In this document: piece by piece, positions 5,854-20,235 of the stretch | Position numbering within the stretch: the stretch's first letter is position 1 | Layout: each line of letters begins with the position of its first letter | Assembly: GCA_944389475.1 (NCBI GenBank) | Contig: CALXMM010000001.1 | Span: forward strand, 62,001 to 126,000 | DNA: 64,000 nucleotides | Reading direction: 5' to 3' | Source of the DNA: an uncultured Clostridia bacterium | Lineage (GTDB): Bacteria > Bacillota > Clostridia > TANB77 > CAG-508 | Notes under the pieces: generated by a model | Told to the model about the DNA's origin: nothing | Seen by the model: only the letters and a program-made list of their open reading frames with translations | The model's database searches: none | Program-made: the position numbers and the translations under genes

Positions 5854-6660
5854 ATGAAAAAGAAAAAAATATTAAAAAATATAATTAATTTAATTATATT
5901 ATTTTTAAGTACGGAATTAATAAATATTCTTTTAAAAGAAATTCCTGAGCTTAATAATATTGATCTTAGATTAGTATTTATATTCATAATTGCAAATTAT
6001 ATGGGAACAAAATATGGAGTTGTATCTGCTATATTAGCAAGTATAATATATATTTTGCAAAATTATAGTGGAGTTTTAGATGTAAGTATAATAATGTTAA
6101 ATACAAACAATTGGTTACAGATAGCCATTTATTTAGCTTTTGCAATCATAATAGGATTAAAACATGATAAAGATAATTTAAAAATAAATTCATTAAATAA
6201 TTCTATTGATGAATATAAAGAAAAAGAAGAAGTTAATAATAAAAAAATACAAGCATATGAGGATGAATTAAAAGAATTTAATCAAGTATTATTAACTCAT
6301 AAAAAAACTTATTTCCAAGTTTCAAATTTTTTACATCAAATAGATTTAGTAAAGTATGATAATAAAAAAATTAGTAATTATTTAAAAGATATTTTAGATA
6401 ATGAAACCTGTGAATTTACTAATATACAATCAATAGAAAAATTCCTTGACAATAGAAGTATGACTACAGTTGGAGAAGAACATATATGGATAAATAAAGA
6501 TTTAAGCGAAGAAAAGCCTTGCTATATAGTTCCTATATCAATTGAAAGTCAAGATTATGCTGTTGTAATTTGGAAGTGCAAATTTGAACAAATGAATACT
6601 GATTATAGAAATCAAATAATAGGTATTGCTAAAATTATAAAATATGCATTATCACATTAG
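5854..6660 (+). CDS. PelD-like membrane protein without GGDEF domain
   Basis: 268 residues, first gene of the pel-type operon. Four hydrophobic helices fill roughly residues 8-108, followed by a charged coiled coil (about 108-150) and a C-terminal region (about 150-268) that looks like a small GAF-type domain. This is the layout of PelD up to its GAF domain. In Pseudomonas PelD a degenerate GGDEF domain with an RxxD site follows and binds cyclic di-GMP to switch on synthesis; here the protein simply ends, and no GGDEF remnant or RxxD site is visible. The identification rests on architecture and position before PelE-, PelA-, PelF- and PelG-like genes. RBS GGGGAAG. Confidence 0.75.
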   Translation: MKKKKILKNIINLIILFLSTELINILLKEIPELNNIDLRLVFIFIIANYMGTKYGVVSAILASIIYILQNYSGVLDVSIIMLNTNNWLQIAIYLAFAIIIGLKHDKDNLKINSLNNSIDEYKEKEEVNNKKIQAYEDELKEFNQVLLTHKKTYFQVSNFLHQIDLVKYDNKKISNYLKDILDNETCEFTNIQSIEKFLDNRSMTTVGEEHIWINKDLSEEKPCYIVPISIESQDYAVVIWKCKFEQMNTDYRNQIIGIAKIIKYALSH

Positions 6661-6675
6661 AAAGGAATTACCATA

Positions 6676-7533
6676 ATGTTATATAGAATAATAATAGTTT
6701 ATTTAATTATTGTATTAGTTTATTTTAAAATTCATGGTGTAAAGAAAAACAAAATTGAAAAATTCATTTTTTCAATTTGTATACCAATCTTTGGACTTAT
6801 AATTACCATATTATCAGAAATTTCAGAAAATAAAAAAATAAGTACATCAAAAAATTATACAAATACATCCAAAAATAAAATTGAACAAAGCAAAGAGTTT
6901 CTTACTAATATACAAAGTTCTGTTATAGATGATTTAGATTTAAAAGATTATGTAAAAACAAGGGATATAATATTATCTATGCAAACATTGCCTTTAAAGA
7001 AACAATGTGAAATATGCCAAATAACAATATGGTCAAAGAATGTAGAAATTTCACATATTTCCGCAGTTTCATTAATGAGAATAAAAACTTATTTTGAAAA
7101 GTTTTTTGTACATATGGAAACATATATGGATTTATCCAAGATTGAAAATATAGAAAGATATATTAATGGATTAAATAATTATTTAGAATGTAAAATAGTA
7201 TATGGTTCTTTAAGAGAGGAATATGTTAACAAAATTATTTCTCTACTAAAAGAGTTATTAGAAAAAAAGAGTAATTGCGAAGAAAAATATTATCGTATGC
7301 TAATAAATAGATGTCTAGAAGCGAAAAAATATGATGAAGCTAAAAAACATGCAAAGATATTGTTAGATAAATTTGGAGTTAATGAAGAACGTTATAATGA
7401 GGTTTTAAAAGTATATTATGAGATTAAAGATGAAAATTCTTTAAAGGATATAATAAATAAATTAAAAGATATTCCAAAACTTACAAAAGAATCAAAAGAA
7501 ATTGTAGAATTTTGGGAAGGGGAAAGGATGTAG
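6676..7533 (+). CDS. PelE-like membrane protein with helical repeat region
   Basis: 285 residues. Two hydrophobic helices near the N-terminus (about 1-17 and 30-48) are followed by a cytoplasmic all-helical region (about 80-285) with TPR-like pairs such as CLEAKKYDEAKKHAKILLDKFG. PelE in known pel operons has the same plan (two membrane helices plus TPRs) and is an inner-membrane scaffold for the Pel synthase. The sequence itself is too diverged for a motif match, so the call leans on order and topology. It starts 16 bases after the PelD-like gene, and the next gene starts one base after its stop, consistent with tight translational linkage. Confidence 0.7.
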   Translation: MLYRIIIVYLIIVLVYFKIHGVKKNKIEKFIFSICIPIFGLIITILSEISENKKISTSKNYTNTSKNKIEQSKEFLTNIQSSVIDDLDLKDYVKTRDIILSMQTLPLKKQCEICQITIWSKNVEISHISAVSLMRIKTYFEKFFVHMETYMDLSKIENIERYINGLNNYLECKIVYGSLREEYVNKIISLLKELLEKKSNCEEKYYRMLINRCLEAKKYDEAKKHAKILLDKFGVNEERYNEVLKVYYEIKDENSLKDIINKLKDIPKLTKESKEIVEFWEGERM

Positions 7534-7534
7534 A

Positions 7535-9385
7535 ATGAAAAAGGTAAAATTAGGTATATTACCTTATATAATAATATTATGTTGTTTGGCTTTTGTAATT
7601 GTAAAAGTAAGGGATACTCGTTTAGTAGATAGTTCAATACAATATACACCAAGTAATAACTTGCAATTAATAGGAAAAGATGAGTGGAATACATTACAAC
7701 AAACAACAGAAAAGATAAAAAATGAAAAGTCTATATTAATATATGATGATACAAATGAAAATGGTGTTACTACTTTTCAAAATGTTCAATATGTTTTAAA
7801 TTCCATGGGAGTAGATGTTGTACCAGTGAAAATAAGTGAACAGAGCCAATATAAAGATATTTCTGATTATGACACAATGGTAATCTGTTTGGAAAATTTA
7901 GAAAATTTAGCTTATTCAAGTAGTGAACTAGAAAATTGGGTAAGCAGTGGAAAAGGAATATATTTTACTCTACCTTTACAAAATGATGAATATCTTAAAC
8001 CATATGCAGATTTATTAGGAATAGAAGATCCAAATGATATTTCTACAATAGAATATAAAAATATGACATTTGCAGATGATTTTTTAATTGGAGCTAAGGG
8101 AAAAGAATTTTATGAAGACACCATAAATGGTAGTGGTTTAAAAGTAAATTTAAAAGATGATGTTACAATCCATGTAACTGAAGCAGAAGATTCAGGTAAT
8201 CCAATTTTATGGAATCTTCAATATGGTGATGGCTTTGTATCTGTTTGTAATGCATATTTATTAGGAGATAAGGTAACAAGAGGATTAATTGCTGCTGGAT
8301 ATGCTGAACTACATAATTGCTATGCATATCCTGTTATTAATTCTTCAATGTACTGTATAGATGATATGCCATCACCAATTCCAACCGGATATAATGAAAT
8401 AATAAATAAACAATATCATTGTAATATGGAAGACTTTTATTTTAATATTTGGTGGCCAAGAATGAAAAGTCTTACAGAAAAATATGGTATAAAGTATTCA
8501 GGATTTATAATACAGACATATGAGGATAACACAGAACCACCATATGATAATAAAACTTATATGGAAACCTCAAAATATTATGCTAATTCATTGTTAGATT
8601 CTGGTGGCGAGCTTGGAATTCATGGATATAATCATCAATCCTTAGTTTTTGAAGGATTTGATTATAGGGATGATAAGGTTCATTATAAACCATGGAAGAA
8701 TTTTAATGATATTGCTGAAGCTACTAGAGCTGTAATTGCTTTTGCAAAAGAGATAGCTCCAAATGCAAACATAACAACATATGTAGCACCTAGCAATATA
8801 ATCAGCCAGTATGTATGGAAAGAGATGGAAAAAAACATACCAGAAATTAAAGTGTATGCAGGTGTTTACATAGGAAATGAAGCAGAGATGGTACAAGAAT
8901 TTGAGGCAAAGGAAGATGGAATAGTATATGTTCCAAGAACAGATTCTGGAATGGATTTAGATTTAGATGTACAAAGTGAATTCTTAATGTATAACGAATT
9001 AAGTTTTCATTATGTTCACTCCAACTTCCTTCATCCAGATGATGTAATCGATGTAGATAGAGGGGCAAATGAAGGTTTTGAAACATTATTTGGAAAATTT
9101 GAGAACATGGTAAAAACCTTAAATGCTTCAGGTATAAGAAATACAACAGTTTCTGAAGGAGGAGCTGCTGTTCAAAGATATTGTTTAACATCATGTAAGC
9201 AAAATTTTGATGATGGAACTTTAAAACTTGAAGTTAATGGAATAAAAGATGAAGTATATTATTTTGTTAGATTAAATAATGGAGAAAAAATCAAAAATAT
9301 AGAAGGAGCAGAATATAAAAAAATTAATGATAACTACTATTTATTAAAAATAAATCAAAAAGATGTAGTTATAGAAATGGAATAG
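7535..9385 (+). CDS. PelA-like (DUF2194-type) extracellular polysaccharide deacetylase
   Basis: 616 residues with an N-terminal signal anchor (about 7-24), so the rest is outside the cell. Residues ~60-250 resemble a class-I glutaminase-like fold (YDTMVICLENL, GKGIYFTLP). From ~268 a CE4-type deacetylase region follows: an aspartate pair in MYCIDDMP (residues ~275-276) and H363xxxH367 in GIHGYNHQS, the expected Asp-His-His metal site. In pel systems PelA deacetylates the GalNAc-rich polymer; Gram-positive clusters carry a deacetylase-only PelA at this place. I see no separate GH166-type hydrolase domain here. The match to DUF2194 is from memory of the family, not a search. Confidence 0.75.
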   Translation: MKKVKLGILPYIIILCCLAFVIVKVRDTRLVDSSIQYTPSNNLQLIGKDEWNTLQQTTEKIKNEKSILIYDDTNENGVTTFQNVQYVLNSMGVDVVPVKISEQSQYKDISDYDTMVICLENLENLAYSSSELENWVSSGKGIYFTLPLQNDEYLKPYADLLGIEDPNDISTIEYKNMTFADDFLIGAKGKEFYEDTINGSGLKVNLKDDVTIHVTEAEDSGNPILWNLQYGDGFVSVCNAYLLGDKVTRGLIAAGYAELHNCYAYPVINSSMYCIDDMPSPIPTGYNEIINKQYHCNMEDFYFNIWWPRMKSLTEKYGIKYSGFIIQTYEDNTEPPYDNKTYMETSKYYANSLLDSGGELGIHGYNHQSLVFEGFDYRDDKVHYKPWKNFNDIAEATRAVIAFAKEIAPNANITTYVAPSNIISQYVWKEMEKNIPEIKVYAGVYIGNEAEMVQEFEAKEDGIVYVPRTDSGMDLDLDVQSEFLMYNELSFHYVHSNFLHPDDVIDVDRGANEGFETLFGKFENMVKTLNASGIRNTTVSEGGAAVQRYCLTSCKQNFDDGTLKLEVNGIKDEVYYFVRLNNGEKIKNIEGAEYKKINDNYYLLKINQKDVVIEME

Positions 9386-9389
9386 AATT

Positions 9390-10802
9390 ATGAAGATTTG
9401 TTTTATATTAGAAGGATGTTATCCATATGTTTATGGAGGAGTATCTACGTGGGTAAATCAATATATTTTGTCAAAACCAGAGCACGAATTTATACTATTA
9501 ACAATTGGTGCCAATAAAAGAGATAGACATAAATTTGTATATGATATACCGAAAAATGTAATTAAAATAGAAGAAATATTTTTAGATGAAGATGTAGAGG
9601 TTAATTCAAAAGCAAATAAATATATAAGCTCAGATATATTTTTAAAAGAAATAAAAAATCTTATTTTGGGCGAAAAGGTTAATTGGAAAAATATATTTGA
9701 TGAAGTAAAAAATCCAAATTGGAATGATAATGACTTTTTTGAAGGAAAACAATATTTAAATATTATAAATGATATAGCAAAAAATGAACTTAAGGAAGAT
9801 GGCTTTTTAGAAGTATTTTTTGGAATTAAGTCAATGCTAAAGCCATTATTACAATTATTAGCAATACCAATACCGGATGCAGATATTTATCATTCAGCTT
9901 CAACAGGATATGCAGGAATTTTAGGAGCGCTAGCAAAATATAAAACTAATAAACCATTTATCCTAACTGAGCATGGAATATATCCAAGAGAAAGAGAAGA
10001 AGAGTTGCTTGCTTGCGATTGGTTGGATGATTCAATGAAAAAAATTTGGATACAGTTCTTTTACAATATTTCGAGTATTGCGTATGAAAAAGCCACATTT
10101 GTAACATCTTTATTTGAGGCTTCTAAAGCAACTCAAATTGCTTTGGGATGTGATAAAGATAAATGTTATGTTATTCCAAATGGAATAAATTATAAACAAT
10201 ATGAAATAATGCCGGACAAAAAAGAAAATGGATTTACAGATATTGGAGCATTTATACGTTTTTCTAGAATTAAAGATGTAAAAACATTATTATATTCATT
10301 TTATGAAACGCATGCTAAATGCAATAATGCAAGATTACATATTTTTGGTGCAACTAACGACAAGGAATATAAAAAAGAATGTTTAGAAATAATAGATTCT
10401 TTAGGACTAAAAGAATGTGTAACCGTTTATGGACAAATAAATCCTTTAGATTATATGCCACGTATGGATTTTACAATATTAACAAGCATTTCAGAAGGTC
10501 AACCACTTACGATACTGGAATCATTTGCAGCTAGGAGACCTGTTGTATGCACGAATGTAGGATGTTGTAGGGAGCTAATAGAAGGAAATAACGATGGAAT
10601 TGGAAAAGCAGGAATTTGTTGCACACCTATGGACATATCTGGAATAGCAAGGGCAATGATTACTTTATGTCAAGATAAAGATTTATGTAAAAAACTTGGT
10701 AGAAATGGTTTAGAAAGAGTAAAGAAAAATTATACATACGAAAAAATGATAAATGGATATTTTGAATTATATGAAAAGGGGATAAAAAATTGGCAGGGAT
10801 AG
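9390..10802 (+). CDS. pelF: PelF-type glycosyltransferase (GT4)
   Basis: 470 residues, cytoplasmic. PelF is the retaining GT-B enzyme that polymerises UDP-GalNAc/GlcNAc in Pel synthesis. The opening CFILEGCYPYVYGGVSTWV is the hallmark of PelF. It continues with FILTEHGIYPREREEE and VIPNGINY, and a GT4 EX7E motif (E369 and E377 in SEGQPLTILE), then RRPVVCTNVGCCRELIEG. Length is close to the family's. It starts four bases after pelA-like and overlaps the PelG start by 13 bases, so the two are probably translationally coupled. This is the best recognised gene of the operon and anchors the identity of the others. Confidence 0.93.
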   Translation: MKICFILEGCYPYVYGGVSTWVNQYILSKPEHEFILLTIGANKRDRHKFVYDIPKNVIKIEEIFLDEDVEVNSKANKYISSDIFLKEIKNLILGEKVNWKNIFDEVKNPNWNDNDFFEGKQYLNIINDIAKNELKEDGFLEVFFGIKSMLKPLLQLLAIPIPDADIYHSASTGYAGILGALAKYKTNKPFILTEHGIYPREREEELLACDWLDDSMKKIWIQFFYNISSIAYEKATFVTSLFEASKATQIALGCDKDKCYVIPNGINYKQYEIMPDKKENGFTDIGAFIRFSRIKDVKTLLYSFYETHAKCNNARLHIFGATNDKEYKKECLEIIDSLGLKECVTVYGQINPLDYMPRMDFTILTSISEGQPLTILESFAARRPVVCTNVGCCRELIEGNNDGIGKAGICCTPMDISGIARAMITLCQDKDLCKKLGRNGLERVKKNYTYEKMINGYFELYEKGIKNWQG

Positions 10803-13627
10803 GTTTTGAACTAAATAAATTAATAAATAAAAAGAATTTTTTTAGTAAAGTAAGTGGATATTTTTATACAGCTAGTTCATGTTTAGGCTCTATGATATTA
10901 GGATTTGTTTTAATATTTGTAATACAAGCAATAGCTAGAGCTTTAGGGCAAGATAGTATAACATCTCAAAGATTTACAGGTTATATAACAAATACGGTAT
11001 TTTTATCAATGATAATTTTTGGATTTTTTTCATTAGTATTATCAAGATATATTTCCGATTTATTATATAGCAAAAAAGAAGAAAGATTATTATCTTCCTT
11101 TTGGGGAATTGTAGCTATAATTATTCCAATTTCTATATTAATTTATACCCCAATTTTGTTAATATCAAAAGTGCAATCCATTGACATTATACTTTTATTG
11201 GTATTACTTTCAGAATTTGTTTGTACTTGGATAGCTACTTTATATGTTACAATATTAAAAAATTATAAAAAAATAACTTTAGCATTTTTAATATCCATGA
11301 TTATATCTATTTTAATAATTCTAGCTTTTTATTATATTAAAATGATTAATATGGAAATAATGCTTTTAATAATTATTGCAAGTTATGGATTTGTTTTAAC
11401 ATTTTTAATAAATCTTTTACGAAAAGAATTTAAAAGCGAAGACAAAAATACATATGAATTTCTAAAATATTTTTCTAAATATCCAATATTGGCTCTTACT
11501 GGTTTATTCACAACATTAGGCACATTGATTCATTTTTATATAATGTGGTTTAGTCAATATGGAAATGAAATACAAGGATTAATACATAGTTCGCCAACCT
11601 ATGACTTTCCGGCTATTATTGCATATTTTTCAACTATTATTACTAGCATAACATTTGTAGCAATATTAGAGCCACATTTTTATAAAAAATATGCTAAGTA
11701 CTTTAAACTTATAAATTCTTCAGGGAATTATAAAGAATTGCAAGTAGCAAAACAAGAAATGGTATTAACATTAAAAGTTGAATTAAGAAACTTAATTATT
11801 AGGCAAATTGTAACAACAATATTATTTATAATAGTAATTAGTAAGATATTGTCAGATATTAATATTGGTATGAGCAAAACTATGATAGAGACTTTTAAGG
11901 TTTTATGTGCGGGTTATTCATTACAGGCAATAGGAAATGTAATATTACAATTACAGCTTTATTTTTCAGATAATAAAGGAGCTTTTGTTACTTCTGTTGT
12001 CTTCTTGTTAGTAACAACTGTAGTAACAATCTTAACTCTATTTTTAGATATTTCATTCTTAGGTGTAGGAGTGTTATTTGGTGGAGCTTTAATGGCAATT
12101 GTAGGCGATAAAAGATTAGAGAATTATTTAAATGATTTGGAATTTAATGTGTTAAATCAAAAAGAGAAGGAAACGAAAAATAGACTTTTTGTGTTAATAG
12201 AAAGAGCTTCTTTAAAAGTAAGAAAAATAAATAAAAATAAAATAATTAATCGAATAGCTAGTATAGGAACAATTGTTATATTAGTTTGCGTACTTGCAGT
12301 TAATGTCTTTAAAGGAGAAAGAGTGTCAACACAAACATATTTACCTCAAGAAACGGATGATATTCTTAATAATCCGGGAGTAGGATTAGCACCATGGGCA
12401 AAAAGCGAAAGTACATTACAATTAAATACGAAATTAGTATATATAGATTTATCATGGGCTGAGTGGGAACCAAGAAAAGGAGTTTATGATTACGAAGGTT
12501 TCGAAAATAAAAATCATATAAACGAATATAAACAGCAAGGAAGACAAGCGGTATTTAGATTTTATATGGATTATCCATCAACTGAATCACATAAAGATAT
12601 TCCTGATTGGCTATATAACGAAATTGATGGTGATGGAACTTGGTATAATACTAGTTATGGAAAAGGATTTTCTCCAAATTATAACAATCAAAAATTAATA
12701 GATTATCATAAAAAAGCTATTGAGGCATTTACACAAAGATATGGAGATGATGATTTCTTTGTATATGTTGAATTAGGAAGTTTAGGACATTGGGGTGAAT
12801 GGCATGTAAACAAAGATGAAGGACTTAAAGGAATGCCAGATTATGATATAAGAGAAAAGTATGTAGAGCCATATGTTTTAAATTTTAAAAAATCTAAGTT
12901 TTTGATGAGATACTCTTTAAAAGAAACGGAAAAATATAATTTTGGTTTATATAATGATATGACAGGTGATCAGAATGAAACAAATTATTGGTTTGAAGGT
13001 ATGCAAGGAACTGAAGTGTGGGAACAAACCGAAAATGAAAAGATGGCTAATAATATAAATAAATGGAAAACAATGCCTATAGGGGGAGAATTTGCATCTT
13101 CATATAGTAATGCATATTTCCTAAAGGATCATTTAGATATGACAATCTTTTTATTAAAACAAAGTCATCAATCTTTTATTGGACCAAAAGTAATAATAGA
13201 TGAAGAAGATGGTGCTAACTATAAAAAGCAAATGGATGAAATATTAAAAGTATTAGGACATAGATTATATGTTGAGAGAGCTACAATTAAAAGGCAAAAT
13301 TCTAATAAGTTAAATGTATCTTTAAATTTAAAAAATGATGGAACAGCACCAATATATACGGATACTCAATTAGCAATATATATTTATGATAATAATGGTA
13401 ATATGATATCTAAATCTGTAGCAACAAACTTTAATCCTGGAACAATATTACCAGATAATGTTGCTCAAAATGTAAATTTACAACTAGATACTAGCAATTT
13501 AGAAAGTAATACAACTTATAATTTATGTATAGCTCTAGAAGATAGAAACACAAATAATCCAATTATAGAATTAGCAATGCAAAAATATAAAGATAAGGTT
13601 TACAAAATTGGACAATTCAATTGGTAA
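10790..13627 (+). CDS. pelG: PelG flippase fused to a DUF4832-like glycosidase-type domain
   Basis: 945 residues from a TTG start with an AAGGGGAT site; MAGIGFELNKL is the usual PelG opening. Residues 1-460 hold 12 hydrophobic helices of a MOP-family flippase such as PelG, which exports the Pel polymer with PelD, E and F. A thirteenth helix at ~485-506 follows. Residues ~515-945 resemble a DUF4832-type TIM-barrel: LNNPGVGLAPWA, LSWAEWEPRKGVYDYE, VELGSLGHWGEWH (about 659-671, two candidate acidic catalytic residues) and MPIGGEFAS, ending in a beta-sandwich-like stretch. With twelve helices the flippase ends inside; the thirteenth would place the extra domain outside. Ordinary PelG is about 450-500 residues, so this is a real fusion and not an overlap of two ORFs. 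Confidence 0.88.
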   Translation: MAGIGFELNKLINKKNFFSKVSGYFYTASSCLGSMILGFVLIFVIQAIARALGQDSITSQRFTGYITNTVFLSMIIFGFFSLVLSRYISDLLYSKKEERLLSSFWGIVAIIIPISILIYTPILLISKVQSIDIILLLVLLSEFVCTWIATLYVTILKNYKKITLAFLISMIISILIILAFYYIKMINMEIMLLIIIASYGFVLTFLINLLRKEFKSEDKNTYEFLKYFSKYPILALTGLFTTLGTLIHFYIMWFSQYGNEIQGLIHSSPTYDFPAIIAYFSTIITSITFVAILEPHFYKKYAKYFKLINSSGNYKELQVAKQEMVLTLKVELRNLIIRQIVTTILFIIVISKILSDINIGMSKTMIETFKVLCAGYSLQAIGNVILQLQLYFSDNKGAFVTSVVFLLVTTVVTILTLFLDISFLGVGVLFGGALMAIVGDKRLENYLNDLEFNVLNQKEKETKNRLFVLIERASLKVRKINKNKIINRIASIGTIVILVCVLAVNVFKGERVSTQTYLPQETDDILNNPGVGLAPWAKSESTLQLNTKLVYIDLSWAEWEPRKGVYDYEGFENKNHINEYKQQGRQAVFRFYMDYPSTESHKDIPDWLYNEIDGDGTWYNTSYGKGFSPNYNNQKLIDYHKKAIEAFTQRYGDDDFFVYVELGSLGHWGEWHVNKDEGLKGMPDYDIREKYVEPYVLNFKKSKFLMRYSLKETEKYNFGLYNDMTGDQNETNYWFEGMQGTEVWEQTENEKMANNINKWKTMPIGGEFASSYSNAYFLKDHLDMTIFLLKQSHQSFIGPKVIIDEEDGANYKKQMDEILKVLGHRLYVERATIKRQNSNKLNVSLNLKNDGTAPIYTDTQLAIYIYDNNGNMISKSVATNFNPGTILPDNVAQNVNLQLDTSNLESNTTYNLCIALEDRNTNNPIIELAMQKYKDKVYKIGQFNW

Positions 13628-13704
13628 AATAAAAAGATTTATAAAAAACAACTTAGAATAGTCTGGAGTGAACTCACTTTAGTGGACATGAATTAAAAAA
13701 GATT

Positions 13705-13739
13705 ATGGGACTACATTAACTTGTAGTCTCATATTTTTT
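13705..13739 (+). terminator. Terminator of the pel-type operon
   Basis: ATGGGACTACA at 13705-13715 pairs with TGTAGTCTCAT at 13722-13732, followed by six T residues. Confidence 0.85.
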
Positions 13740-14170: not shown

Positions 14171-15181
14171 ATGAAAAGCTTTACTAAAAAGCTAGCCATT
14201 TTACTAATTGCATTATTAACAATTGTAACATTAATGCCTTTAAGCAAAGTATTTGCTGCTAATGAAGACATACAATTAGTTAAAGCTACAAATGGTAATA
14301 TTGTTATTTATGTAAATGGATTAGAAAAGAATGATTTTGCTTATGCTTTATCAAATAAAGAGGGAGCAACTGAAGGAGAATTAACATATAAAAAATCAGT
14401 GCTAGATAGTGAAAATAGTGAAGAAGCAAATTATGTAGCAGTAGTTACACCAGAAGAATTAAGTCAAAATGGTTATTTATATGTAAAGAAAAATGGTGAA
14501 GATGTAGCAAATACAATTCAAATTAATGCAGATGTAAACAATATGTTTACACAAGAACAAATGAGCTTAGTTGAAAATACAACTAAAAGAATTGCAACAG
14601 AAGTTATAACAGATTCTAACTCTAGAGAGGAAACTGTAAATGAAGTTAAATATACATATACAGTTGGAGGTTTAAAAATTACAGATGACCAAACTGCAAC
14701 ATATTCATATGTTATGGTTAAATTACCAGCAGATGGATATACTAATCTTCAAAATTTAGCTAATGAACTAAATATGAATGATAAAACTGTATGCGATAGA
14801 ATACAGCTAGCTAACGAATTTTACAATCAATATCAAGCATTATTAGATAATGCTAATGCAGAGAATAGTTGGAAAGCAGTAGAGAATATGCAAATATTAC
14901 AAAATGAAGATTATGAAAATAATGAGAACTATGTTGTATTATTAAAAAAGGTTGCAACAGATGGAACAACAACATATGATGCAAAATTTATGAATACAGA
15001 GTTTACAAATACAGAAACTGTAATACCAGCTAGTACTCAAGAAGTTAAAAAACAAGAAACTTCAAAATTACCTATAACAGGTGACAGTATTGCATTATTC
15101 GTTATTTTAGCAGCATTAATAATTATGGCAATATTTGTTTATGTAAGAATGAGAAAAGCAAATAAAAAGGCAGATAAATAA
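14171..15181 (+). CDS. LPXTG-type cell-wall-anchored surface protein
   Basis: 336 residues with a signal peptide (1-29, ending VFAAN), an extracellular region of no recognised family, and a classical sorting signal at the C-terminus: LPITG at residues 300-304, a hydrophobic helix (about 308-327) and a basic tail RMRKANKKADK. A sortase would cut between Thr and Gly and link the protein to peptidoglycan or to a pilus partner. An unusually strong AAGGAGGGGG site precedes the ATG. The next gene, the sortase, overlaps the stop codon by one base (TAATG), so substrate and enzyme are translationally coupled. Confidence 0.85.
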   Translation: MKSFTKKLAILLIALLTIVTLMPLSKVFAANEDIQLVKATNGNIVIYVNGLEKNDFAYALSNKEGATEGELTYKKSVLDSENSEEANYVAVVTPEELSQNGYLYVKKNGEDVANTIQINADVNNMFTQEQMSLVENTTKRIATEVITDSNSREETVNEVKYTYTVGGLKITDDQTATYSYVMVKLPADGYTNLQNLANELNMNDKTVCDRIQLANEFYNQYQALLDNANAENSWKAVENMQILQNEDYENNENYVVLLKKVATDGTTTYDAKFMNTEFTNTETVIPASTQEVKKQETSKLPITGDSIALFVILAALIIMAIFVYVRMRKANKKADK

Positions 15182-15768
15182 TGAAAAATAGAATTTATAA
15201 AATAATCTTTTGTATTTTAATCATTTTAATTATATTTGTTATAGCTCTAATTCTTATAAAAGAAATGAAGAGCAATGAAAATGAAAAGAAAAATCAAGAG
15301 GTTGTAGAAAATTTTTCAAGTATAGATAATAGTCAAAAACAAGAATTAACATTAAATGGCTACAAAGTAATAGGTTTAATAAAAATTCCGGCAATCAATC
15401 TAGAATATCCTATTTTAGATATGGAAATTTCTAATCCGGAGGAAGCAAAGGCTCCAATGAAACTTGCAATAATTAAATATTGGGGCGGAGAAGTTAATGG
15501 ATATGGTAACTTATCACTTGCAGGCCACAATAATTATAATGGAACAATGTTTGGTAAAACCAAGAATTTAAAAGTAGGAGATATAGTTGAATTAACAGAT
15601 TTAAATAATCAAACAATTCAATATCAAATATATGATATTTTTAAAACAGATCCAAACGATGTAACAATATTGGAAACAAAGGATAAAACAATTAGAGAGG
15701 TTACTCTAATTACTTGTACAAATGGTAATAGAGAAAGATTAATATTAAAAGCCAAAGAAATGATATAG
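15181..15768 (+). CDS. Sortase
   Basis: 195 residues with an N-terminal membrane anchor (about 5-28) and an extracellular sortase fold. The catalytic set is visible: His116 in LAGHNNYN, Cys179 in TLITC and Arg186 in NGNRERL. Sortases are membrane transpeptidases that join LPXTG proteins to lipid II or to pilin lysines. The short length, TLITC motif and coupling to a single LPITG gene suit a dedicated housekeeping-like or pilus-assembly sortase; I cannot assign the class safely. The following adhesin gene starts 15 bases downstream. Confidence 0.9.
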   Translation: MKNRIYKIIFCILIILIIFVIALILIKEMKSNENEKKNQEVVENFSSIDNSQKQELTLNGYKVIGLIKIPAINLEYPILDMEISNPEEAKAPMKLAIIKYWGGEVNGYGNLSLAGHNNYNGTMFGKTKNLKVGDIVELTDLNNQTIQYQIYDIFKTDPNDVTILETKDKTIREVTLITCTNGNRERLILKAKEMI

Positions 15769-15783
15769 AAGGAGGAGTTTTTG

Positions 15784-18700
15784 ATGGCAAAGCCAAGTAA
15801 GAAAGCGACAATTATTACAGTTGCTATATTAGCAGTTCTTTTAATAGTTGCTATTGTTGCTGTTGCAGTCTTTTTAAGAGATAAAGGTTCAACAGAAGCT
15901 GCTGGAATGGAATCAGAACAAACTGTAGGTCAAAATGAAAATTCAGAAACAAAGACATCTGAAGAACCAAATCAAGAGACTCAAAGTGCACAAGAATCTT
16001 CTACACCAAGTGGTACAAATACATTAGGTGAGATAGCTTCTAATGCTAATCAACAAACAACTAATGAAGGAACAACACAAAATGCTGGAACACAAGGAAC
16101 TACAACAAGTACAGGAACAGCAGGAACAACTAATGCTGGAACATCAAATACAAATGGTTCTAGCTCAAATGTAGGTACAAATAGTTCAAATGGAACTACT
16201 ACATCTACAGAAAATATTCAAGAATCAACAATCACAAGAACTGATATAGTTAATATACCTGAAAGAAAGGTTTCAGAGGATCATAATGTTTGGTGGGAGC
16301 CAATGAGCATTAGTGCATTATTAGCTTCTGCAAATCCAACAACTAATGATATTGTTGATGTAGAAAAATCAGGAAATGAAGAAGTAGCACAAGGTGAAAC
16401 AATAAACTATACAATAAAGGTTACAAATAAAACAGATAAAAAATTAGAAGGAATAGAAGTTAAAGATGTTTTACCAGAAGAAGTAGATTTAAATTCTATT
16501 CAATATGAAACTGAACCAAAAATGGTTGAAGGAAACATTGTAAAATGGAATGTTGATATTGAACCAAACGCATATGTAGAAATTAAATTTTCTGTAAAAG
16601 TTAAAACTACTGTTGCACCAAATACAGAAATAAAGAACTCAGCTATTGCAAATGGTAAAACAAGTAATGAAGTTATAACAAAAGTAGATGAAGCAACTGT
16701 ATCTGTACCAGTATCAAAAGAGATACAAGCAGGAGATAGTGATGCAGCAAAAGCATATCCAATAAGTGGAGCAGTTGTAACATTAAAGGGAACAGATGGT
16801 TCAACACAAGATGTAACATTAAATAAAGATAATAATTATGCATATGAATTTAAAGATTTAGCTAAATATGATGCACAAGGAAATGAAATTACATATACAG
16901 CAGAAGAATCAGCAATAAAAGGAGAAGAAGAAGAATTTAAACATTATAAACAAGATGAATCAAAAGGAGAAGGACAATTTGTAAACACATTTGACCCATC
17001 AACTGTACAAGATGAAACAACAGAACTTCCTGTACATAAAGATATCGTTACAAATAATAGTGATGCAGCAAAAGCATATGCAATAACAGGAGTAGTTGTA
17101 ACATTGGAAGGAACAAATGTAGAACCAATAACATTAAATGAAGCAAATAACTATACAGGAAAATTCACAGGCTTAAAGAAATATGATGAAGAAGGAAATT
17201 TAATTAAATATAATGCAGAAGAATCAGCAATAGCAGAAGAAGAAGCAGCATTTAATCATTATACAAAAACAGAAAATGAAGAAGGACAATTTGTAAATAC
17301 ATTTGACCCATCAACAGTGCAAGATAAAACAGAACTTACAGTTACAAAGACTTGGGATGATATGGATAACAATTTTAAGACTAGACCTAAAAGTGGTGCT
17401 ATTAAAGTAAACTTAAAAGCTAATGGTAAAATAGTACAAAAAGATGTTTCTATAAAGGCTAGTGAAGGTTGGACATATACTTTTAGAGATTTAAATAAAT
17501 ATGATTCAACTGGAAAAATTATAGATTATACTGTTGAAGAAGAGCTAATTCCAAATTACAATTATCCACCAACATATAATAAAACTGATAATGGATACGA
17601 AATTGTAAATAAAGCTGATTTAAAAGAAACAAGTATAGATAAAACAGTTGTAGGAATTAAGCAAGTAGGTTCAGAAAATCCCAATACAATAGACACAGAA
17701 ATTCCACAACCAGATTTAGATGAAAATGAAATAGAAAAAACTTATAAATTAAATGCTAGTTTAGGTGATACTATTATTTACAATATAAGAGTAAATAATG
17801 ATGGAAATACAAAATTAAATAATGTTACAGTAACTGATGACAAAGCAGTAACAATTATAGGAGTAACACCTATTAAAAATGGAACTAAAGGAAATAAGAC
17901 TGAAGTTAATATTCCAACAACAGCAAATACTAATTTATTATTAGCAGCAGTTAATAAAACAACATTAGATGTTGGAGAAGGATATATCTTTACAGTATCA
18001 TATACATTAGGTCAAGCTGATATTGCTGATGTATCAGAATTCTCTAATAAAGCAACAATAGATTCTGATGAAACAGATCCAGAATCAAGTACATCAACTG
18101 TTAATACAAATGTAAAATTTGACCACGAGTTAACAAAGAAAATTATGTCTGTTGAAGGAAGAGATGTATCTAACCCAACACAAACTATAGTAGATTCAAC
18201 AACAATAGTTAATACATATTCTGACAAAGCAAATAAGGGCGAAACTATAACATATAAAATAACAGCTGAAAATAAAGGAACTACAACAATTAGTAATTTG
18301 AAATTAACAGATAATAGAGATGTATATGTAGAATCAATAAAATTCTCAACACAAAAAGATAGTATTCCAGTTAATAAAAACATAACAGTAGAAGAGAACT
18401 TATTAAATAGTGATACTTATGAATTAGCACCAGGAGAAACAGTAGAAGTTGTTGTAACATATGAAATTGGAAGTATGAGTAAGGACAATACAGGTGCAGA
18501 AGAATTAAACATTGAAAATATAACAAACCTATACGGAGATGCTTTTGATCCAAGTTCAAATGATCCAAATAATAGTTACAAAGATGTAAAAGATGAAGCA
18601 AGAGCAGAAATTACTGCAACAATGAAAGCTAATATATCAATTAGTAAAAAATCAGACAAAGGAAATAAAGAACTAGAACCAGGAGATAAAATAAAATATA

Positions 18701-20235
18701 CAGTAACATTAACAAATAGTTCACCTGTAGAAGGAACAGCAAAAGTTAAAGAAAGTGTTCCAACTGGTACAACTTTAGTTAGTGATGTAACAGTAAAAAC
18801 ATCAAAATCAGGAACTAATAATCCTACAAAATTAAGTCCAGAACAAATTGAGACTATGTCAAACGGAGAGTTAGAATTAACAGTACCTGGTAATGGAAAT
18901 GTAGTAATAACATTTACTGTTGAAGTACAAAATTCAGCAATAGCAACAACAGTAAAAAATCAAGCATCAATAGCCAATGAAGATAAAACTTCAGAAAAAA
19001 TAGAAAATCCAATTAAAAAAGCTTTAAATATTTATGAAACAAAAACAGAATTAGGTAAACAAAGTGTTGTTATAGTAGTAGATATGACATTAAGTTTAGC
19101 TGCAGGTGTTGAAACAGATAATACTGACAGATTAGCATATGCACCATTAAATGCTGATGGAAGTATTAACTACAGAGCAGGATATGAAAATACAAGATGG
19201 TTTAAATTAAAAACAGCATTAGATAGCTTTATAGATTCATATTTAGGAGAGAATCCTGGAAATAAAAAATCTGTTGCAATTGTAGGATTCTGTAAAGATA
19301 TAGTTTTAGATAGTAAAGATATACTTTTAGATAGTGATGGATTTATAACTAACGCTGAAACAGCAAAAGATCTTTATAAAAATGTATTTACATTTGACCA
19401 ATATAAAGCAGCAGTTGATTTTGGACTAAGTTGCAAAGAAGACCCAGATGAGATGTTAGATTTCTTAGAGGATCATGGTAAAGATCGTGATGACCAAACA
19501 CCATTTAAAGAAAATAAAGATGGAACATATGACATAGATGTTGATGTTTTATCATTCCTTGATGACATAGGATTTTATGATGGTAAAAAATGTGGTTTAG
19601 GTTCAGGAACTAATATTCCTATTGGATTAAAAGAGGGAGAAAAATTAGTTTCATCACAAACTGAGAAAAATATTCCAACGGATTTAATAGTAATTACTGA
19701 TGGAGAAAATAACAAAGGTGAAAAATCAGATATTGCTAAATATGCAGAAGAAGTTATGAAAAATTCTGTAAAGGATAATGATAATAAAGAAGTAAATTCT
19801 AAATTATATGCAATTGGATTTACTGAAGATGCAAAAACATTTAAAGATTTATTAAAAGGTCATATGACAAAATATTATACAGCAACTGATACAACATCAT
19901 TAAACAATGCTTTTACAGCAATAAAAGGAGATACTGAAAGAAATCCAGAACCAATTAGGGCAACAACAAGTAATGAAGGATGGGTATCATTAAACGATAT
20001 TTCTTTTGCAGATAATTCAGTAATTACATTCTACACTGGAAGTGCAATACAAACAGATACTTCTACTACAATTGTAAAATATGATAATTTTGAAGAATTT
20101 AAGAATGCTAAAGATAAGACAGAAAAAGCATATTATAATTCATCAAATAATACATTTAATTTAAAACAATTCTTAATTGATAACAATGTAAAGGCGGGAG
20201 CTACAATTAATATGGAAGTATATACTGTAGAATAA
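15784..20235 (+). CDS. Giant surface protein: N-terminal anchor, DUF11/Cna-B repeats, VWA domain
   Basis: 1483 residues from the ATG at 15784 (GGAGGAG site; the TTG just before is unlikely). Layout: signal-anchor helix (~9-31), Gly/Ser/Thr/Asn linker (~38-150), a DUF11-like beta domain (~175-300), two near-identical Cna-B-like repeats (~308-412 and ~416-513, each ending FVNTFDPSTVQD), a third Cna-B-type domain (~517-620), further DUF11-like domains (~640-1075) and a von Willebrand A domain (~1092-1380) with MIDAS residues DMTLS (1100-1104) and ITDGEN. It ends with a small domain and lacks any LPXTG signal, so it appears held by its N-terminus, unusual for a VWA/Cna-B adhesin beside a sortase. 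Likely role: adhesion or a surface fibre. Confidence 0.85.
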   Translation: MAKPSKKATIITVAILAVLLIVAIVAVAVFLRDKGSTEAAGMESEQTVGQNENSETKTSEEPNQETQSAQESSTPSGTNTLGEIASNANQQTTNEGTTQNAGTQGTTTSTGTAGTTNAGTSNTNGSSSNVGTNSSNGTTTSTENIQESTITRTDIVNIPERKVSEDHNVWWEPMSISALLASANPTTNDIVDVEKSGNEEVAQGETINYTIKVTNKTDKKLEGIEVKDVLPEEVDLNSIQYETEPKMVEGNIVKWNVDIEPNAYVEIKFSVKVKTTVAPNTEIKNSAIANGKTSNEVITKVDEATVSVPVSKEIQAGDSDAAKAYPISGAVVTLKGTDGSTQDVTLNKDNNYAYEFKDLAKYDAQGNEITYTAEESAIKGEEEEFKHYKQDESKGEGQFVNTFDPSTVQDETTELPVHKDIVTNNSDAAKAYAITGVVVTLEGTNVEPITLNEANNYTGKFTGLKKYDEEGNLIKYNAEESAIAEEEAAFNHYTKTENEEGQFVNTFDPSTVQDKTELTVTKTWDDMDNNFKTRPKSGAIKVNLKANGKIVQKDVSIKASEGWTYTFRDLNKYDSTGKIIDYTVEEELIPNYNYPPTYNKTDNGYEIVNKADLKETSIDKTVVGIKQVGSENPNTIDTEIPQPDLDENEIEKTYKLNASLGDTIIYNIRVNNDGNTKLNNVTVTDDKAVTIIGVTPIKNGTKGNKTEVNIPTTANTNLLLAAVNKTTLDVGEGYIFTVSYTLGQADIADVSEFSNKATIDSDETDPESSTSTVNTNVKFDHELTKKIMSVEGRDVSNPTQTIVDSTTIVNTYSDKANKGETITYKITAENKGTTTISNLKLTDNRDVYVESIKFSTQKDSIPVNKNITVEENLLNSDTYELAPGETVEVVVTYEIGSMSKDNTGAEELNIENITNLYGDAFDPSSNDPNNSYKDVKDEARAEITATMKANISISKKSDKGNKELEPGDKIKYTVTLTNSSPVEGTAKVKESVPTGTTLVSDVTVKTSKSGTNNPTKLSPEQIETMSNGELELTVPGNGNVVITFTVEVQNSAIATTVKNQASIANEDKTSEKIENPIKKALNIYETKTELGKQSVVIVVDMTLSLAAGVETDNTDRLAYAPLNADGSINYRAGYENTRWFKLKTALDSFIDSYLGENPGNKKSVAIVGFCKDIVLDSKDILLDSDGFITNAETAKDLYKNVFTFDQYKAAVDFGLSCKEDPDEMLDFLEDHGKDRDDQTPFKENKDGTYDIDVDVLSFLDDIGFYDGKKCGLGSGTNIPIGLKEGEKLVSSQTEKNIPTDLIVITDGENNKGEKSDIAKYAEEVMKNSVKDNDNKEVNSKLYAIGFTEDAKTFKDLLKGHMTKYYTATDTTSLNNAFTAIKGDTERNPEPIRATTSNEGWVSLNDISFADNSVITFYTGSAIQTDTSTTIVKYDNFEEFKNAKDKTEKAYYNSSNNTFNLKQFLIDNNVKAGATINMEVYTVE

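Follow-up and report, generated by a model that had tools for sequence, protein, structure and literature searches.

The closest described relatives of the locus analyzed here are the Gram-positive pelDEA(DA)FG operons accompanied by a CotH/VTC/DUF4956/DUF4832 gene set (PMC7112168, PMC12345266). In the streptococcal and clostridial pel clusters, the DUF4832 protein is the product of a separate accessory gene, which lies beside genes for CotH, a VTC-type polyphosphate polymerase, and a DUF4956 protein (PMC7112168). SIR_1591 of Streptococcus intermedius, composed of a transmembrane (TM) helix, a TIM barrel, and a DUF4832 β-domain, has been interpreted as membrane-anchored; it has hydrolase activity and breaks up Pel aggregates, yet its deletion produced no aggregation phenotype (PMC12345266). 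A hydrolase that cleaves Pel, a biofilm sugar, is likewise tied to the biosynthetic machinery in Pseudomonas aeruginosa, where PelA carries both hydrolase and deacetylase, and in Bacillus cereus, as PelAH (BCE_5582).

The window, a 64,000-nucleotide stretch of the genome of an uncultured Clostridia bacterium, contains at 5854–13627 a pel operon that shares with the Gram-positive systems its core genes, their order, a deacetylase-only PelA, and a homologous DUF4832 hydrolase. In those operons, however, PelG (~480–500 aa) has a gene of its own, as does the hydrolase, whereas in the window the two form one protein; the window's genome also has no CotH, its PelD is short, and no gene stands between PelG and the hydrolase. 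As in P. aeruginosa and B. cereus, a putative Pel hydrolase is thereby tied to the biosynthetic machinery, but P. aeruginosa joins its hydrolase to the deacetylase, while here a different hydrolase is joined to the exporter. No PelG fusion is described in the literature searched, which covered few subscription papers, and to our knowledge the window thus exemplifies a conserved architecture, undescribed within that literature, that is a rearrangement of known parts.

The pel operon and its genomic setting

The operon is of the Gram-positive type and consists of five intact, closely packed ORFs, all on the forward strand and in the order D-E-A-F-G that the first-pass annotation had recognized. 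The pelD-like gene (5854–6660; 268 aa), identified by its ORF, BLAST matches to PelDs, and Pfam, aligns only with the internal TM/GAF-like part of the 700–950 aa clostridial PelDs; neither an N-terminal SDR part nor a GGDEF match was detected in it by BLAST or Pfam. PelD is only ~270 aa across the window's clade (for example L085:285–1094), and two GGDEF genes are present elsewhere in the window's genome. The pelE-like gene (6676–7533; 285 aa, with TM segments and a repeat-like region) was assigned from its profile match to PelE genes that occupy this position in other operons. It is followed by pelA(DA) (7535–9385), which encodes a membrane-anchored PelA. Here the expectation of a shortened Gram-positive PelA held: the Pfam matches comprise DUF2194 and deacetylase domains and nothing else, the hydrolase domain being absent, and the protein matches 9zau, a solved chain of B. 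cereus PelADA (E 8e-60, 206 bits), of which it retains the IDD, GIHGYNHQ, and HPDD motifs. The pelF gene (9390–10802) encodes a GT4 glycosyltransferase that matches the NCBIfam PelF equivalog NF038011 (E 8e-103). It overlaps by 13 nt with the pelG::GH fusion gene (10790–13627), a 945-aa ORF delineated with Pfam and AlphaFold2, which starts with a TTG codon at 10790; its closest homologue has ATG at the same place. A terminator-like stem-loop with a T tail on the same strand (13704–13733) is the probable end of the operon.

Pel is very rare in the family to which the window belongs, and among genomes drawn from that family and order a true PelG was found only in G000 and G316. In the congeners G010 and G013, the genes that border the operon in the window, rsmB and the LPXTG/sortase set, lie close together and pel is absent, and in G316 pel occupies a different genomic setting. 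The pel-free site in congeners and the other setting in G316 point to insertion of the whole operon at the window site, probably by horizontal transfer. The segment 5643–14171 of the window is a variable insertion spot that holds pel here and different content in other congeners. Directly 3′ of pel, at 14171–20235, are genes for an LPXTG-type protein, a sortase, and a protein of 1484 aa in which adhesin-like regions are repeated; this set occupies the same site in two congeners without pel.

Architecture and predicted topology of the fused exporter

The PelG exporter domain (residues 1–454; 10790–12151) has 12 TM helices and matches PF16933 across positions 1–451 of the 452-position profile (E 8e-108). 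The protein then extends far beyond helix 12, to 945 aa as against the usual ~480–500 aa; nearly all other PelGs examined, fusions excepted, have open frames of 458–600 aa, the 600-residue frame in L053 (G970) lying above the usual length. In the full-length AlphaFold2 model (mean pLDDT 90.7) twelve long helices are seen up to residue 448 and another at residues 485–506 (12242–12307), exactly where an extra helix had been noted at first reading. This thirteenth TM helix has a pLDDT below 50 in the full-length model, in which only the five fused sequences cover it, and of ~88 in a model of the domain alone; in alignments with standalone homologues it falls on their N-terminal signal anchor. Helices 12 and 13 are separated by a linker (residues 455–484; 12152–12241), recognized from the alignment, with 12 Lys/Arg in residues 442–488. 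Because this linker is Lys/Arg-rich, it is predicted to be cytoplasmic, and the C-terminal domain would face the outside of the cell. The positive-inside rule gives the same picture for the exporter, Lys/Arg making up 26 of 139 residues in inside loops and 5 of 74 in outside loops in an N-in arrangement, and so supports the external placement that had been proposed.

Beyond helix 13, a TIM-barrel glycoside-hydrolase-like domain (approximately residues 511–825; 12320–13264) is followed by a C-terminal β-sandwich (residues 826–945; 13265–13624), the carbohydrate-binding-module-like part of DUF4832; the match to the DUF4832 Pfam family (PF16116) spans residues 719–922 (E 4e-20). An AlphaFold2 model of residues 476–945, built from an 80-sequence alignment, has a mean pLDDT of 93.1 and consists of a signal-anchor-like helix, the barrel, and the β-sandwich. 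Foldseek matched the domain in the PDB to endoglycoceramidase (2oym), GH35 β-galactosidases, and Bacillus β-amylase, in agreement with the published analysis of SIR_1591 (PMC12345266). A contig search with the domain alignment A1 returned 350 relatives, of which the best 80 were examined, whereas a single-sequence search with the full fused protein found no match. E670 (12797–12799), after strand β-4 (657–661), and E767 (13088–13090), within strand β-7 (764–768), are identical in all of these best 80. In such barrels the two catalytic acids usually sit at β-4 and β-7, and from fold and conservation together we infer that E670 and E767 form the catalytic pair. Thus the TIM-barrel hydrolase that had been surmised from sequence motifs is supported by confident structure prediction, which shows a barrel with an acidic pair, and by comparison with glycoside hydrolases.

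The β-sandwich resembles carbohydrate-binding domains, as has been described also for SIR_1591 (PMC12345266), and could suggest that the fused domain is a noncatalytic module that binds or guides Pel, holding or steering the polymer. We consider this very unlikely: besides E670 and E767, eight surrounding residues (R590, D594, H601, D603, H667, R707, D723, and H793) are invariant in 80/80 of the best 80 of 350 relatives, and one standalone member is active. Part of the hydrolase profile A3 also matched anthrax protective-antigen chains (E 3e-4 to 0.02, ~20 bits); these matches are weak and partial and are likely due to chance.

Origin and recurrence of the fusion

The first-pass annotation had suggested that the hydrolase function was moved from PelA to the exporter. 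The data do not support this, because the domain belongs to a different hydrolase family, DUF4832, and has a different source gene, one that normally stands on its own in pel clusters. Profile A3 found no match to a PelA hydrolase among solved structures, and the PelA hydrolase (GH166/GH114-like) is missing from the 50 best Foldseek matches of the fused domain. The window's genome contains no other DUF4832 gene, no CotH, and no GH114-type gene.

Among the best 80 of the 350 relatives together with the earlier loci, pelG and the hydrolase gene are apart at 59 loci, directly adjacent at 3 (L105, L132, where their ends overlap, and L156), and fused at 5. The S. intermedius locus (L122) has the order pelG-CotH-VTC-DUF4956-hydrolase; its hydrolase is 468 aa, the length published for SIR_1591, and shares ~33% identity with the fused domain over the domain. 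The separate forms in Chloroflexota and Lachnospiraceae proved to be true separate ORFs when checked for hidden fusion. The fused protein resembles SIR_1591 in its TM anchor, TIM barrel, and β-sandwich and in the same invariant acids, whereas SIR_1591 is standalone, with its own start, and the window form hangs on PelG helix 13. By these comparisons, the fused gene is an in-frame joining of pelG to a DUF4832 accessory hydrolase gene that is a separate pel-operon gene in most relatives. Moreover, the alignment of the fused domain with the standalone proteins begins at their extreme N-terminal hydrophobic segment, and an N-terminal TM/signal segment or lipobox is present in 75 of the 76 standalone homologues among the best 80 of 350 relatives. 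Most plausibly, then, helix 13 is the hydrolase's former N-terminal signal anchor.

A survey of PelG homologues found the PelG-hydrolase fusion in at least five genomes, the window's included, and in two divergent lineages (best 80 of 350 relatives). The other carriers are the uncultured Clostridia BRZ_AS bin32, which belongs to the window's family but to another genus (L084, in the same genome as G316), an uncultured Clostridium (L085), and the rumen metagenome-assembled genomes (MAGs) RUG11079 (L086) and RUG074 (L087). The long PelG ORF noted at first in the window thus has four counterparts of the same architecture, all five proteins being 937–945 aa. The assembly that contains the window is a draft in 32 contigs, and few genomes carry the fusion, as might be expected if an assembly error or a frameshift had artificially joined two genes. 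The probability of this is negligible: the same architecture and junction recur in five independent assemblies, with PelG identities of 36–78% and no internal stop, and these independent genomes carrying the same ORF rule the artefact out. In addition, dN/dS of the hydrolase half is 0.12–0.26 and similar to that of the PelG half; values well below 1 in both halves argue against an artefact and indicate that both have been kept by purifying selection.

In trees built by a quick method, the five fused genes are set apart from all others by a branch with SH-aLRT support of 99 (PelG), 100 (hydrolase), and 99 (PelF), a grouping that depends on fairly long branches. Because the five form one clade in all three trees, a single old fusion is the simplest account, and most likely one fairly old event occurred within one operon lineage. 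Conserved genes also follow the fusion operons in the two rumen MAGs (L086:11390–14644 and L087:11300–14564), where a 346-aa gene and a large gene, the latter bearing peptidoglycan-binding repeats in L086, are possibly further operon members.

Possible cleavage of Pel during export

Collectively, the operon, the fusion, the fold, the conserved acids, the predicted topology, the recurrence, the single clade, and the purifying selection, all computed here, suggest a model that we regard as probable. In it, pelG fused with a neighbouring SIR_1591-type gene of its own operon, the anchor of the hydrolase became helix 13, and the translocon-tethered hydrolase cleaves Pel at its exit. PelF together with PelD and PelE would make the polymer inside the cell, PelG would translocate it, and the membrane-anchored PelADA would deacetylate it at the exit; B. 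cereus PelADA has been modelled touching PelG helices (PMC13254593). With the retained signal anchor as helix 13, the 12-helix exporter (N-in, C-in) would hold the hydrolase outside, one molecule per exporter, where it would cut Pel endolytically at that same exit. Cutting might set chain length, or release or clear polymer at the exporter. We infer that the fused hydrolase can cut Pel, stays attached, and acts on nascent chains during export, and the earlier idea that the polymer is trimmed as it emerges is plausible. The missing aggregation phenotype of the SIR_1591 deletion (PMC12345266), the low confidence of helix 13 in the full-length model, and the rarity of the fusion weigh against the model.

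Whether the hydrolase stays attached depends on the fate of helix 13. Were this helix a cleaved internal signal, the fusion would serve to make and secrete the hydrolase together with the exporter, yielding a released or wall-located dispersal enzyme that does not act on nascent polymer. Such an arrangement would suit the ability of standalone SIR_1591 to work on preformed aggregates from outside (PMC12345266), the alanine-rich helix-13 regions of L086 and L087, and the lipobox, lipoprotein- or signal-peptide-like, in 13 of the 76 standalone relatives (best 80 of 350). We nevertheless judge release to be unlikely, since SIR_1591 itself has been interpreted as membrane-anchored and the hydrophobic anchor lacks a lipobox in 62 of the same 76. 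Fusion to the exporter constitutes Rosetta-stone evidence that the hydrolase works at the translocon. This matters because SIR_1591 is active and yet deleting it gave no aggregation phenotype (PMC12345266); with PelG-GH, cutting of Pel during export could be studied in a single polypeptide. The fusion is carried by a small number of gut and rumen bacteria, its enzyme partner, standalone elsewhere, probably cuts Pel, and conversion of an accessory enzyme's signal anchor into an extra helix of the exporter would be a simple example of coupling between export and modification.

A second type of fusion was found in two poultry-gut Lachnospiraceae MAGs, Candidatus Dorea gallistercoris (L137:3486–6725) and Candidatus Egerieimonas intestinavium (L149:3493–6801), where PelG runs on into a CotH kinase domain to give proteins of 1080 and 1103 aa. 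As in the window, an accessory extracytoplasmic protein is joined to the PelG C terminus via a signal sequence; here, however, the partner is a CotH kinase and the junction is a hydrophobic segment with an internal lipobox-like end. L137 and L149 group together on the PelG tree, far from the hydrolase fusions, and CotH is normally the gene after pelG, as in L122. The two separate fusions indicate that the gene following pelG was captured at least twice, with a signal sequence as the linker through the membrane, and the independent PelG-CotH joining at the same point suggests that the C-terminal end of PelG tolerates such tethering. More tentatively, the PelG C terminus may have served in evolution as a docking site for extracytoplasmic enzymes that modify Pel, allowing cotranslocational cleavage or phosphorylation, with the hydrolase as a built-in chain-length cutter; we see this as possible rather than probable. 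Apart from the fusions, the pelA, pelE, or pelG frames look broken at L101:14594–16413, L115:1163–2082, L155:1746–3569, and L093:8501–9866, in several named genomes, streptococcal ones among them, which suggests loss of Pel in some strains.
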